Assembly (NCBI RefSeq): GCF_052324685.1
Contig: NC_135213.1
Span: forward strand, 4,117,646-4,181,645
Length of the DNA stretch: 64,000 nt
Origin: Brachyhypopomus gauderio
Taxonomy: Eukaryota > Chordata > Actinopteri > Gymnotiformes > Hypopomidae
Direction of reading: 5' to 3'
In this document: piece after piece, positions 49,008 to 63,586 of the stretch
How positions within the stretch are numbered: the first letter of the stretch is position 1
How the letters are laid out: each line of letters opens with the position of its first letter
The notes under the pieces: model-generated
The model's database searches: none
The model's input: only the letters and a program-made list of their open reading frames with translations
Told to the model about the DNA's origin: nothing
Made by a program: the position numbers and the translations under genes

Positions 49008-57404
<8,397 letters not shown>

Positions 57405-58189: not shown

Positions 58190-58594
58190 TTAACTGACTG
58201 ATAGGTTGTAGATCAACGTGCCCTTTTTTGTCATGGCACACGCAATATCGGTAAAAGTGCCCTTGGAAAGTGTTTTGGTGCAGGTGCCCAGAACGTCATC
58301 GTCCTTCACGTCTTCGTCATACACCACCATCTTCAGAACCTGCCCGGATTTACAGCTGGCAAAGCTGAACACTTCGGACCAGCCGGGATAAGCCGTGCTC
58401 GGTTTGGTGACGGTCCTTCCTCCGCTGACCTTGTTACACGAGACCATAACGTACGGGTCTGGCTTGTTGCCGAGGGCGTCGCCCGCCAGGTCCCGGGCCC
58501 TGAGGCTGCGCACGGTGACGGCCGCGGTGGAGATCATGACGTGGAACACCAGCACCAGGACGGTGAGACACATCAGACGAAGACAGAGACCCAT
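58190..58594 (-). CDS. Small secreted perforin-type C2-domain protein (copy 1)
   Basis: 134 residues in one coding exon: a hydrophobic signal peptide (about residues 1-25) followed by one C2 domain and nothing else. The domain resembles the C-terminal C2 of perforin-1: VRSLRARDLAGDALGNKPDPYV (D39, D46), GWSEVFSF, VYDEDVKDDDVLGTC (D93, D95, D98-D100), ending GTLIYNLSVS. These acidic loops fit Ca2+-dependent membrane binding, which I infer. Cys53, 81, 105 and 119 align with the four cysteines of copy 2, suggesting two disulfides. The ATG at 58592-58594 was chosen because an acceptor (CATAACAG) lies just upstream. A non-coding exon with donor near 58768 is preceded by CATATAAA. No pore-forming MACPF domain is present. 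It may be annotated as perforin-like in fish. Confidence 0.85.
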   Translation of the reverse strand: MGLCLRLMCLTVLVLVFHVMISTAAVTVRSLRARDLAGDALGNKPDPYVMVSCNKVSGGRTVTKPSTAYPGWSEVFSFASCKSGQVLKMVVYDEDVKDDDVLGTCTKTLSKGTFTDIACAMTKKGTLIYNLSVS

Positions 58595-58810
58595 ACTTCC
58601 TTCTGTTATGAGCAAGGGGACAAAATGAAGCTTGCAGAACTTGCATGCAAACAGTTTGTTGTTTGGATTACAGTAGAAAATTGAACAGAAGCTTTCTTAA
58701 CCTTAATTAACTGCTTTAAAGGCAGAAAACACTGTTTCAGGGTTTGAAGTGGATGGATAGCTCTTACCTGAAGATTCAAAACCCCAAGTTGCTCTCTGCT
58801 AAAACTAGTC
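58595..58810 (-). promoter_or_regulatory. 5' UTR intron and TATA-type promoter of C2 copy 1
   Basis: Minus strand: TATATAAATT-like TATA box near 58815, about 45 bp before a non-coding exon donor (CTTCAG then GTAAGA) at about 58768; the acceptor is near 58608. Confidence 0.5.
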
Positions 58811-58902
58811 CCAATTTATATGTGTTCTGGAACATACTCTGACCTTGAACTTATCAACAGGTGAACAAGTCTCACGTACATCATCCAATAAGAACATAGG
58901 CC

Positions 58903-58904
<2 letters not shown>

Positions 58905-58958
<54 letters not shown>
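58905..58958. repeat. (TA)n microsatellite
   Basis: About 26 TA units at the left edge of duplicated segment A. An equivalent run occurs at 61556-61610 beside segment B. Confidence 0.96.
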
Positions 58959-58959
<1 letters not shown>

Positions 58960-59180
58960 CGCCTTGCATACATATTCATACCGTGGGTATATGTTAGACA
59001 TACAGCTTGTACCAGCATGTGTTTAGATTACTCTGACATACAGTGCCTGACTTAACCCTCTATTGCACACATTATTACACCAACATATAAAAAAAAGTGT
59101 TTTTATTTTTTAAAGGGGTACATTATGGTACGTTGCCATATGGAAACATTGTGCAACAATGGAAACAAGATCAAACAGAT

Positions 59181-59643
59181 TGTAACGAATGAGAGCTAAG
59201 AGGCGGACACAAAATCTGAGGAGAGCAGGGTTTAATGGCTGGAGTATTAACATAGGGGGTAAGAGGGTGACGAGGCATACTAATAAAATACAAACTATCA
59301 CAAACCAAGAACTGATAACCAGACAGGATGACTCAGAATACAAAAGACAGAGGAAAAACAAATACAAGAACTCAGAACAAGGCCAATAAACAGAACAACT
59401 TACAAGGCAGGAATACGAACAACCAGGATTACTAACACAATGACTTCCAAAGAGGGACTCAAACACGGAGTACAAGTACCAAACAAATCAAGACAAACTA
59501 GACACACCTGAAATTAAGGAAGGAGGGACAGACAAGACAAGGTGAACAACAGAAGACACTGGACTAACTGGGGAACGGATCTAAACAAGGTTACACAGAA
59601 GACAAGGACAGGACTGACAGCGGGACGGGATTCATATGTGACA
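59181..59643. mobile_element. Solo LTR-like insertion (fossil retroelement), 5-bp target duplication
   Basis: A 463-bp sequence that starts TGTAAC and ends GTGACA (TG...CA ends), flanked by the 5-bp direct repeat CAGAT at 59176-59180 and 59644-59648. The duplicated partner segment (around 61820-61830) has the uninterrupted site with a single CAGAT. No coding sequence: it looks like a lone LTR left from an LTR retrotransposon. Family unassigned. It is younger than the local duplication. Confidence 0.8.
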
Positions 59644-59934
59644 CAGATCATAGAACTTTCATATATGAATTTAATTAGTTTTGTTCACTGAAAAATGTTA
59701 CAATTCAGTAATCAATGAGAAATAAATGATTAATGAATTGTAACATCAATTGTAACAGAATTACATTTACTGGATGGAAAAGGGTTTTAAACAGCACGTC
59801 CACTATTAAAATACTTTTTGCAGTTTAAAAATGAAACGGTGTTTATAGATCACTTTTTATTGCTCTTGAAGTCATTGGGAAACACACTACAGTCGGTTCT
59901 CGATCTCTAATGATTCTCATTTGAACAGAGCTAC

Positions 59935-60056
59935 CTAGAGCTCATAGCTGTAGTACAGAGTGCCGTGCTGCAGTGGGCAAGCCATGCTCTGGTGAAGGCC
60001 TGGCTGAGCAGCAATGTTACAGGTGCCCAGCTTGTCGTCAAAGTTCAGGTCCTTGT
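59935..60056 (-). pseudogene. Truncated C2-domain gene (3' end only)
   Basis: Codes for the last about 40 residues of copy 2 (KDLNFDDKLGTCNIAAQPGLHQSMACPLQHGTLYYSYEL) almost unchanged, ending in TAG instead of TAA. Everything upstream, including signal peptide and first Ca2+ loop, is gone: homology ends at 60056, where a hAT-like element starts. It has no promoter and is surely non-functional as this protein. Confidence 0.92.
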
Positions 60057-60061
60057 AGGCC

Positions 60062-61174
60062 TATAAAAGTGGTGGGCCGTTATCTGCGTTAACGGTGTTC
60101 GATAATTTGATACTCTTATCGGGCGATATAAAAAATATTTATATTTATAATAATAAGTTGGGTTGGGAATTGGGTCAAAATGGGTAAGCAAACTATGATG
60201 ACTTTCAACTTGATAGTTTAGCTCGGCTGTATTCTTAACCAAATTGCACAGTAGGGAAGAGAACGAGTTTTAAACCTGTGAATTACAAATCGTACGTGTG
60301 TTTACATGGATGCAGTCACGAAGTCGCCAGGTTTGCTTCATGGAAAATTCATTTTTAAGAAGTTTCCTAATGGAGACATTGACAAGACCAAAGTTTGTTT
60401 GCACCTTATGCAACGCGGAATTAGTTTATTGTAGGAGTTCTACCAGTCTTTAAACGCAAAGCACCCGTTTGCTAATGCTGCTGACGCTGGTCAAGCACTG
60501 ATGCAGCCCAGGGGAAGAGTCGCTGAAAACAGGTTAAATGTACTAAATGTACTTACATTTCAAATCTCATGTTTAGCTGAATAAACATGTTATCAACCCC
60601 TTTTAATGTACAGTATGTAGGCTTACAAATTCATGTTTGACTGAATATGCCTTCTTAAAGTATGTAGGCATACAGTACTATTTTCATGTTTAACTGAATA
60701 AAGCGTTGAACACGAGTACAGTACATTTTTTTTGAGCATGTTTTTTTTTTCTTCAAGTATCAAAGTAGAACAGCTTCCTCAAGCAGTCATTGATGCATTT
60801 TGGAAACAGGAGATGAGCCCCTGGTCTAATGCACCCTCTGTATTAAGAAACCCTATCTCAAAGACTAGAGGCGGTCCTTGCATAGAGGCATTGCTAGGCA
60901 ATTGCCTTGGGCCCCTCCCACTGCAGCCCACTGTAGGGGCCCCCTGACTAGCTAACTTATTTCTTGCATATTAATGTTGATGGGCCCCCTAGCTAAATTC
61001 GCCTTGAGCCCCCAAATTGCTAAGTCCGCCACTGTCAAAGACTGACTTTTAGTTATTACTTGGGTAGCACGCATATTCTGAATGAGCCATTTTAATCTAG
61101 ATTAATCTAGATTAATTTCAAGATTTCAGTGAGGTTAATCTAGATTTTAAAAATGTATCTATGCCCACCCCTAA
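60062..61174. mobile_element. hAT-like non-autonomous element, hosting a smaller one
   Basis: The left end, GTGGTGGGCCGTTATCTGCG, then GCGATATAAAAAATATT, and the right end, AATGTATCTATGCCCACCCC, recall fish hAT elements with TAGGGGTGGGC-type termini. The ends are imperfect and no target duplication could be defined because the left flank is a broken gene. The right part has palindromic AATCTAGATTAATCTAGATT. No intact transposase. A 169-bp element is nested at 60866-61034. Confidence 0.6.
60866..61034. mobile_element. Nested 169-bp hAT-type miniature element
   Basis: Ends TAGAGGCGGTCCTTGCA and, inverted, CAGTGGCGGACTTAGCA (imperfect TIRs), with 8-bp direct repeats TCAAAGAC at 60858-60865 and 61035-61042. 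It contains GGGCCCC/GGGGCCCC words. Inserted after the surrounding element. Confidence 0.88.
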
Positions 61175-61182
61175 TATATATA

Positions 61183-61545
61183 TACAGTCCCTGACATAAG
61201 TTCTGTCGCTTATCCATGTTGTGGAAACAAAAGGTTATAACCTGACTTTAAATTCATCGATTGGTTTTAGAAATTACTCATATGAAAGCTGAAACCCTCC
61301 CAAATGAGATTTAATTTACGAAAATAAATTCGCTTTACTGCAGAAATATTGATCATTTAATGAACACAGAAAGGTCAGATTTTGGCAAGACAAAAGTTTT
61401 GTTGCCCACAGAAAGTAAGGTGAAAATCAAACAAATAATTCACTTCATATATGCTTAATAACACTGGTGAATGACATTGTGGTGCTATTAGAGCCATATT
61501 TAATATTTTGTGTGACTTCCACGAGCTTGAAGAACCGCATATACA

Positions 61546-61548
<3 letters not shown>
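61183..61548. mobile_element. Tc1-like element remnant
   Basis: It begins ACAGTCCCTGACATAAGTTC, the style of fish Tc1-like termini, and later has GTGTGACTTCCACGAGCTTG, a recurrent sub-terminal word of those elements. The opposite terminus was not found, so it is a truncated remnant. Confidence 0.6.

Positions 61549-61551
<3 letters not shown>

Positions 61552-61615
<64 letters not shown>
61552..61615. repeat. (TA)n microsatellite
   Basis: About 27 TA units with short GTGTG/CACAC caps, at the left edge of duplicated segment B. It reads open in all frames (IYIYIY) but is not coding. Confidence 0.96.
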
Positions 61616-61618
<3 letters not shown>

Positions 61619-62226
61619 CCTTGTATACATATTCATGCCGTGGGTATATGGCAGACATACAGCTTGTACCAGCATGTGTTTAGATTACTCATACAGTGCC
61701 TGACTGAACCCTCTAACATTATTACACCAACATATTAAAAAAGTGTTTTATTTTTTAAAAGGGTACATTATGGTACGTTGCCACATGGAAACATTGTGCA
61801 ACAATGGAAACAAGATCAAACAGATCATAGAACTTTCATATATGAATTTAATTAGTTTTGCTCACTGAAAAATGTTACAATTCACTAATTAATGAGAAAT
61901 AAATGATTAATGAATTGTAACATTGTAACATCAATTGTAACAGAATTACATTTACTCGATGGAAAAGGGTTTTAAACAGCACGTCCACTATTAAAATACT
62001 TTTTGCAGTTTAAAAATGAAACGGTGTTTATAGATCACTTTTTATTGCTCTTGAAGTCATTGGGAAACACACTACAGTCGGTAGTCTCATTTGAACAGAG
62101 TTACTTAGAGCTCATAGCTGTAGTACAGAGTGCCGTGCTGCAGTGGGCAGGCCATGCTCTGGTGAAGGCCTGGCTGAGCAGCGATGTTACAGGTGCCCAG
62201 CTTGTCGTCAAAGTTCAGGTCCTTGT
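61611..62226. repeat. Segmental duplication, copy B (partner 58959-60056)
   Basis: Collinear with copy A without the 463-bp insertion, and continuing into the intact C2 gene. It therefore preserves the original arrangement. Confidence 0.93.
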
Positions 62227-62491
62227 CCCACACTTCGAACTGGAGGTGGTCGCCAGCCCTGCAGTCTGGGAAGTAGAAGCTGGCTCCCCATGTCGGGTTG
62301 CTGGTGTCCTTATGGAACTCGGTCATGCCGCCGAAAGCAGGGCCGCACCACACCTTGACGTACGGGTCGGGGGGGTTAGGGGCGGGGTCGCCCTTCAGGC
62401 CGCTGGCCCGCAGGCCGTACACCCGCAAGGCCGCATCGGCGGACGACAGCGCCAGCACCAGCGTGAGCGCGTACAGCGGGAGGGCGTTCAT
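62105..62491 (-). CDS. Small secreted perforin-type C2-domain protein (copy 2)
   Basis: 128 residues in a single coding exon: signal peptide MNALPLYALTLVLALSSADA, then one C2 domain: LRASGLKGDPAPNPPDPYV (D35, D42), GGMTEFHKDTSNPTWG, VWDKDLNFDDKLGTC (D89, D91, D95, D96), ending TLYYSYEL. It shares the four-cysteine pattern (49, 77, 101, 115) and both acidic loops with copy 1 3.5 kb away, but much of the rest differs, so the split is not recent. The ATG at 62489-62491 is preceded by an acceptor (CCTGCCTAG); the in-frame ATG at 62537-62539 lies upstream of that acceptor and is probably intronic. A non-coding exon with donor AACAG then GTGAGA is likely near 62850. Predicted secreted, Ca2+-dependent lipid binder; no pore-forming part. 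Function unknown. Confidence 0.87.
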   Translation of the reverse strand: MNALPLYALTLVLALSSADAALRVYGLRASGLKGDPAPNPPDPYVKVWCGPAFGGMTEFHKDTSNPTWGASFYFPDCRAGDHLQFEVWDKDLNFDDKLGTCNIAAQPGLHQSMACPLQHGTLYYSYEL

Positions 62492-62950
62492 GGCTTCGTC
62501 TAGGCAGGGGGGAATATCGAGAAATATAGAGAAGGTCAAGTGTCAACAGCGACGGTTAATCGGCTCGGCTATGCCGGCAGCTCTGTGCGGTTCAGTATTG
62601 TTCTCGAGCTGAACTGTCTGATTCGGGGCTACACACGGCCCATCAGCAAGATCAGATGAGCTGAACCGCGCAGTGCTTGGATCTGGAAGGTGAGAGGGTT
62701 CACACCTCGGGATGAGATCCACGGGTCAGAATGGACCAGCCAGTGACCCTGACCTCACACCACAAGGATAAGAAAACACAGACAAAAGGCCCCAGAAGTA
62801 CAGAGAGAAGTGTGGAACTATTGTTAGGAAATACTCGAGCCGATCTCACCTGTTCTGCAGAGTCTGAATACGAGCAGCTTTCCTGGACGGTGAGAAGTTA
62901 CTCTGCACCTCGACCACCCTGAATATAAAGCAAACACGATGCACGTGACG
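62492..62950 (-). promoter_or_regulatory. 5' UTR intron and promoter of C2 copy 2
   Basis: Minus strand: TTTATATTCAGG (TATA-like) near 62920, a non-coding exon ending at about 62851 (AACAG then GTGAGA), and the acceptor CCTGCCTAG at about 62500. The organisation matches C2 copy 1. Confidence 0.5.
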
Positions 62951-63586
62951 ACCTTGAGCAAATCAGCAGGCATTTTATAGCTTGAAAACCTTAAAAAGTA
63001 CCTCCTGAAAAACCCTGATGTGTTTATCAGACAGCACGACAAGTGGACTAGTCACGTATTCAGGGTCTTTGCGTAAGCCTATCATTGTGTAAATAAACCA
63101 AGAGAACTGCATGTTACAAAAAAAAGTTAAAAAAGAAACAAGTAACAAAAAAGAAACAAGGAAAGTCAACACCAAACCTGTTCATGCTCCCCAAATGTAA
63201 TATCCATTTGACTCAGGTAGTCTAATTAGACAGAATATTGACAGTAGTGTTGAGTAATGTAAAGTGATCATTAAAGTGAAAAGCCCACACTGCTCTGAGC
63301 AGAAAATAAACTACAAACTACACGGACATTTTAAGGCCTTTTATTTTAAACCAGGTTCAAGGAAATGTAAACAATATGAGCACTTCTGCCTGTCTGAAAA
63401 CTGTAAAAAGATTTACACATTCGTAAAAGGTGACAATGTGCTTTACTTCATGACTACAAATAACCTATAAAAGTAGCTGTTAGTACGTTTAAAAAGGACT
63501 TTAGATTATGTCAGATAAATGACTGCAGCTATATTGAGAATCCTCATTTATTTTTTATATTTAAGTGTAGTAAGAATATTGTTGAT
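62951..63586. other. Region between C2 copy 2 and the LRR gene
   Basis: AT-rich, no exon recognised; the right part is the probable 3' UTR of the gene at 63587. Confidence 0.4.

Follow-up and report, generated by a model that had tools for sequence, protein, structure and literature searches.

A tandem pair of predicted secreted C2-only proteins resembling the perforin C2 domain

The Locus and Its Genes

The window, meaning here the whole stretch of DNA that was analysed, covers 64 kb (C3:4117646-4181645) of a Brachyhypopomus gauderio genome of 796.5 Mb in 840 contigs. Its minus strand carries two intact genes, A and B, and a fragment of the second, which is what an initial annotation of the locus had proposed (Table 1). 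Pfam scores the C2 domain at 56.5 bits in gene A and at 52.7 bits in gene B, against a gathering cut-off of 22, and C2 is the sole family above cut-off in either protein. Aligned with each other, A and B show 37% identity (E 1e-29, from a single comparison).

Table 1. Features of the A/B locus, in window positions
Feature	Position	Strand	Description	Pfam C2
Gene A	58190..58594	-	Leader + C2, 134 aa, single coding exon, stop counted	E 3.6e-15
Inferred 5' UTR intron, gene A	58603..58767	-	Donor CAG/GTAAG, acceptor CAG; consensus sites only
TATA-like box upstream of gene A	58815-58820
Partial duplication of 61617-62226 (gene B 3' part + 3' flank)	58960..60056		Contains the fragment
Insertion, solo-LTR-like	59181..59643		463 bp; TG...CA ends between CAGAT direct repeats
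Fragment of gene B	59938..60054	-	117 bp; last 39 codons, 5' part absent
Gene B	62105..62491	-	Leader + C2, 128 aa, single coding exon, stop counted	E 5.6e-14
Inferred 5' UTR intron, gene B	62500..62849	-	Donor CAG/GTGAG, acceptor CTAG; consensus sites only
TATA-like box upstream of gene B	62974-62979

The initial annotation also saw no MACPF pore domain here, and none was found, either above the Pfam cut-off in A and B or in the seven minus-strand open reading frames of at least 70 aa considered around them. Searches by tblastn and profile gave no further perforin-type C2 in the 10 kb before the window or in the readable portion of the 40 kb after it, part of which is N. Searches for relatives in viral contigs (112 pattern stretches) and in prokaryote contigs (120) confirmed none.

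The N-termini of both proteins are presumed to be signal peptides, as had been annotated. The window contains 113 ATG-to-stop frames of 60 aa or longer, and by best 11-residue N-terminal hydropathy gene A stands second among them and gene B sixth. Plausible cleavage sites fall, on our reading, between ISTA and AV in A and between SADA and AL in B. Removal of the presumed signal peptide would leave mature proteins of approximately 108-110 residues, with computed isoelectric points of 8.72 (A) and 5.35 (B).

The four cysteines of the C2 region, earlier described as matched, do align: 53, 81, 105 and 119 in A with 49, 77, 101 and 115 in B. Two additional cysteines stand in the leader of A, at positions 4 and 9. 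The C2-region cysteines would form two pairs, one of them perforin-like (105/119 in A, 101/115 in B) and the other extra (53/81 in A, 49/77 in B).

An exon layout shared by the two genes, with spliced 5' untranslated regions, had been part of the same description. Its single coding exon stands, whereas the splicing is read from consensus sites. One donor-like 8-mer occurs in the 320 nt scanned for A (at 58767) and one in the 520 nt scanned for B (at 62849). At window density the expected numbers are 0.04 and 0.065, where the density is taken from eight such sites on the minus strand of the 64 kb, the donors of A and B counted in. An acceptor lies close to the ATG in both genes (58603 and 62500), and the B stretch has three further acceptor-like sites. 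Comparison of the two promoters by eye gave no convincing alignment.

The fragment differs from gene B at two of 117 nucleotides, both in third codon positions, with no amino acid changed. It has neither a start codon nor the 5' two thirds of the gene, and is therefore best regarded as a dead partial duplicate of B. The duplication to which it belongs matches its source in two pieces by blastn, one at 92.4% and the other at 90.7%; the match ends at 60056, and below 58960 it continues into AT repeats. The 463-bp insertion interrupts only the fragment's copy, the copy at gene B being free of it. The insertion looks like a young solo LTR, its class and exact ends being our own reading.

Elsewhere, the window holds exons with MARVEL and occludin domains, a Rad17 exon and an ankyrin gene; downstream of gene A, on the same strand, lies a DHFR exon. 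The names occludin, marveld2, ankrd34b and dhfr go beyond these domain assignments and are likewise our reading. Six overlapping repeat copies, spaced 39-41 bp apart (56974-57291), sit on the upstream side of the minus-strand DHFR exon. A long repetitive stretch at 52642-53421, open in three minus-strand frames, resembles a minisatellite array, and at 1126-1410 a minus-strand frame that matches reverse transcriptase (Pfam RVT_1, E 5.1e-9) marks a piece of a retroelement. The fish perforin loci named in PMC7574235 have MPEG1-, S100- and PAQR4-like genes as their markers. The words dhfr and ankrd34 are absent from the main text of that paper, so the A/B locus is not named there.

Calcium-Binding and Docking Residues

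In perforin, aspartates D429, D435, D483, D485 and D491 have been given roles as Ca2+ ligands (PMC10400287). On our mapping of residues in a 19-row alignment, these align with D39, D46, D93, D95 and D100 of gene A, and with D35, D42, D89, D91 and D96 of gene B. The acidic Ca2+ loops are thus intact in both proteins, as first annotated, and because the ligand aspartates of perforin are kept, A and B would be expected to bind Ca2+.

The residues with which perforin docks tell another story. In mouse perforin these are the aromatics W427, Y430, Y486 and W488 (PMC10400287). The corresponding places hold A37, A40, V96 and D98 in gene A, and K33, P36, L92 and F94 in gene B; the mouse perforin construct in the alignment itself has alanines at all four. 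Hydrophobic stand-ins are therefore found at two places in B (L92 and F94), while loop 1 of A has small alanines, and one aliphatic residue (V96) stands in place of Y486. Loop 1 reads DPYV in both proteins, and its length is that of the synaptotagmin-like rows of the alignment.

This weakens the initial reasoning from perforin's use of its C2: with the docking aromatics mostly lost, A and B need not attach to membranes in its manner. Since those aromatics are mostly absent, insertion in the style of perforin is not to be expected, least of all in A.

Relationship to Perforin and Other C2 Domains

Among proteins of the PDB, the top sequence match is SmC2P1 (3w56/3w57), at 56 bits for gene A, 64 bits for gene B and 82 bits for a profile made from the two. 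For B, perforin entries come next, at 42.3 to 37.7 bits, with the best other entry at 26.8. The joint profile gives perforin 47.1 bits over profile positions 24-132, an alignment that reaches the end of the domain. Its 49.4 bits for a synaptotagmin-7 chain are the sum of two domains (27.5 and 19.9), and its 46.9 bits for dysferlin are likewise summed over several. Gene A by itself behaves differently, placing perforin in row 13 (26.5 bits) below cPLA2-delta (33.5), synaptotagmin-7 (31.4) and others.

The perforin-like character of the C2 domain, as initially annotated, is therefore borne out for gene B and for the joint profile, and not for gene A alone. The profile search that had been proposed as its check divides in the same way: the best match is SmC2P1, with perforin next for B, but A alone puts other classes above perforin. 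As A ranks perforin so low, it is tied to perforin through B, SmC2P1 and the joint profile.

The genome itself offers a second comparison. A Pfam search found C2 domains in at least 148 places, A and B included, with 150 of 305 candidates scored. From the 146 places besides A and B, 28 loci were compared, eight taken from the search output and 20 chosen by us. A profile made solely of A and B gives 42.4-54.9 bits to all six perforin exons that combine MACPF and C2, and at most 31.3 bits to any of the other 22 loci. Thus, among those tested, the nearest C2 domains in the same genome are those of the perforins. Four loci that had been chosen as candidate perforins for their long frames (L014-L017) were set aside, the profile giving them 9.6 bits or less. 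Five of the six perforin exons lie in one orientation on contig C108 (L009-L013; G000:C108:275000-373700) and constitute a perforin cluster; the sixth is on C4.

These exons also bear on an explanation, which the initial annotation had itself named, that A and B are simply the 3' ends of longer, MACPF-containing transcripts. In all six, MACPF (E 3.4e-38 to 7.4e-40) and C2 share one open frame, which argues against such an explanation. Moreover, A and B, without MACPF in frame, each have their own start codon, a hydrophobic leader, and consensus splice sites just upstream. The explanation was therefore rejected.

Tree and Origin

A tree was built from 19 rows: A, B, SmC2P1 (Sm standing, we assume, for turbot), the mouse perforin C2 construct, six perforins of the same genome, and five synaptotagmin-like and four PKC-like domains, the last two names being our reading. 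Thirteen of the 28 scored loci lie outside it (L006-L008, L014-L017, L019-L022, L024 and L026). The seven perforin C2 domains form one group (support 91/83), and in 92% of 200 bootstrap trees a single branch sets them apart from the other rows. SmC2P1 stands next to this group (84/83). The attachment of A and B is near the base of the tree. All perforin-type rows together receive 72/44, so A and B are joined weakly to perforin, and A groups with the synaptotagmin-like and PKC-like rows at 76/64. Long-branch warnings apply to A, B, SmC2P1, mouse perforin and L018.

Seven tests asked whether particular rows could be held together, and none was rejected, with p-AU values of 0.108 to 0.338 in six and 0.415 in the seventh. 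As one clade, A and B give a p-AU of 0.30. The value of 0.415 belongs to A, B and SmC2P1 as one clade, which is not rejected, yet is absent from the recovered tree. An arrangement joining the C2-only genes with the fish perforins against mouse gives 0.118, and is not rejected either. Gene B, the joint profile and the genome comparison point to a perforin-type C2, with low support from the tree.

Where such genes came from is a matter on which the describers of c2PRF1, a published teleost family of this architecture, suggested two origins; the order in which the family and perforin appeared is not reliably resolved there (PMC7574235). A doubtful reading, but one with some chance of being correct, is that the C2-only genes descend from an old secreted C2 gene that donated its C2 domain to perforin, and are not tails broken off from perforin. 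Two observations form its basis. A, B and SmC2P1 fall outside the perforin group in the tree, and loop 1 of A and B has the ordinary C2 length, one residue above that of perforin and SmC2P1. Were this reading true, the gene from which perforin took its C2, itself missing, would have a living relative here. The opposite arrangement, in which the C2-only genes group inside the fish perforins, also escapes rejection (p-AU 0.118). A wider tree in which these genes are placed would help to tell whether the C2 of perforin came from a secreted gene or the C2-only genes left perforin.

Possible Functions

The reading that we judge to be probable, from the features of the sequence, is that A and B are secreted, Ca2+-dependent phospholipid binders of the c2PRF1 kind that tag membranes in innate defence, and that the fragment is a dead duplicate. 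Here, the proteins would be released into plasma or mucus, media rich in Ca2+, would hold two disulfides, and would load two to three Ca2+ ions. Their targets would be the head groups of anionic phospholipids exposed on damaged or foreign membranes. With most of the docking aromatics of perforin absent, a Ca2+ bridge would contribute more to the contact than insertion of aromatic residues. The result would be a tag or coat on damaged or foreign membranes, in the service of innate defence.

Other roles are, of course, conceivable for a free C2 domain. Members of c2PRF1 have tentatively been proposed to be membrane adaptors (PMC7574235), in which case the C2 would keep further factors attached to membranes or to pores of the perforin kind. 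The Ca2+ ligands kept in A and B would suit such an adaptor, and the six perforin exons of the same genome could supply the pores. However, the mature proteins have no second domain, no partner is known to us, and isoelectric points as far apart as those of A and B do not suggest one shared partner. Such a role seems rather unlikely. A competitor or decoy, filling membrane sites and thereby shielding bystander cells from perforin, would be expected to look like a perforin-type C2 without a pore domain, as A and B do. With the four aromatics of perforin absent in A and partly replaced in B, though, its competition would be weak, and the many lipid sites on a membrane would presumably demand a high concentration. 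The loss of the docking aromatics makes this role less likely, and we regard it as distinctly improbable.

Two further alternatives question the family assignment or the function itself. The proteins might be secreted C2 domains of another class (PKC, synaptotagmin or cPLA2-like) that share with perforin only C2 ancestry. In favour of this are the low rank of perforin among the PDB matches of gene A, the position of A in the tree, and the synaptotagmin-like length of the DPYV loop. Against it, the alignments of SmC2P1 and perforin with the joint profile run through to the domain's end and take in the C-terminal cysteine pair, and all six perforin C2 domains score above the 22 other genome loci tested; there is, in our view, little chance that it is right. 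Finally, A and B might have little or no function, being young or decaying duplicates of the last exon of perforin. The locus is certainly unstable, with its fragment, its LTR-like insertion and its AT repeats. But at 37% identity both genes keep open frames, Ca2+ ligands, four cysteines and a hydrophobic leader, features likely to have been broken without constraint, which makes lack of function very hard to credit.

Whichever role applies, A and B are a good pair for testing whether a free perforin C2 serves as lipid tag, adaptor or competitor. They are diverged members at a compact locus, of which B keeps hydrophobic loop-3 residues and A mostly does not.

Comparison with Known Systems

The closest published description is that of c2PRF1, a teleost family whose members consist of a secretion peptide and a C2-like domain only (PMC7574235, 2020). 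That paper annotated perforin homologues in ten fish species, reported c2PRF1 in several teleosts, and described the Ca2+ residues as conserved in most members. Genes A and B share each of these features: a leader, a single perforin-like C2, absence of MACPF and EGF-like domains (by Pfam), and Ca2+-binding residues kept at five aligned aspartates. Judged by these, the tandem genes are probably a further pair of the teleost c2PRF1 kind. The initial interpretation is largely right, and not new, the 2020 paper having already reasoned along similar lines on Ca2+ and membranes.

No other account of C2-only perforin relatives was recognised among the titles and abstract openings searched, in which few subscription journals are represented. 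By their titles, two further papers deal with PKM-zeta and with soybean C2 proteins, the soybean one containing the name SmC2P1 once. A "C2 domain protein" is mentioned in turbot spleen (PMC5790011) and in turbot liver (PMC11659141), and a "C2 domain-containing protein" in trout gill (PMC11129561); as mentioned there, these may or may not be c2PRF1. The C2 proteins of PMC6369366 and PMC11061238 were considered and, as those papers present them, are different C2 proteins.

SmC2P1, itself called a "C2 domain protein," is 34% identical to A and 41% identical to B. Its loop 3 is one residue shorter than that of mouse perforin, as in A and B, and it has cysteines one, three and four of the four that align in A and B. 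It differs in having no second cysteine and in a loop 1 that is one residue shorter than theirs.

The C2 of perforin-1 (3nsj, 4y1s, and the six exons of the same genome) resembles A and B in its C2 sequence type, its Ca2+-ligand aspartates, its C-terminal cysteine pair and its last strand. Perforin, however, has MACPF and EGF-like domains ahead of the C2 (PMC3477005). Neither A nor B combines these three in one protein; they have the C2 without MACPF, without the EGF-like domain and without most of the docking aromatics, and they add an extra pair of cysteines.
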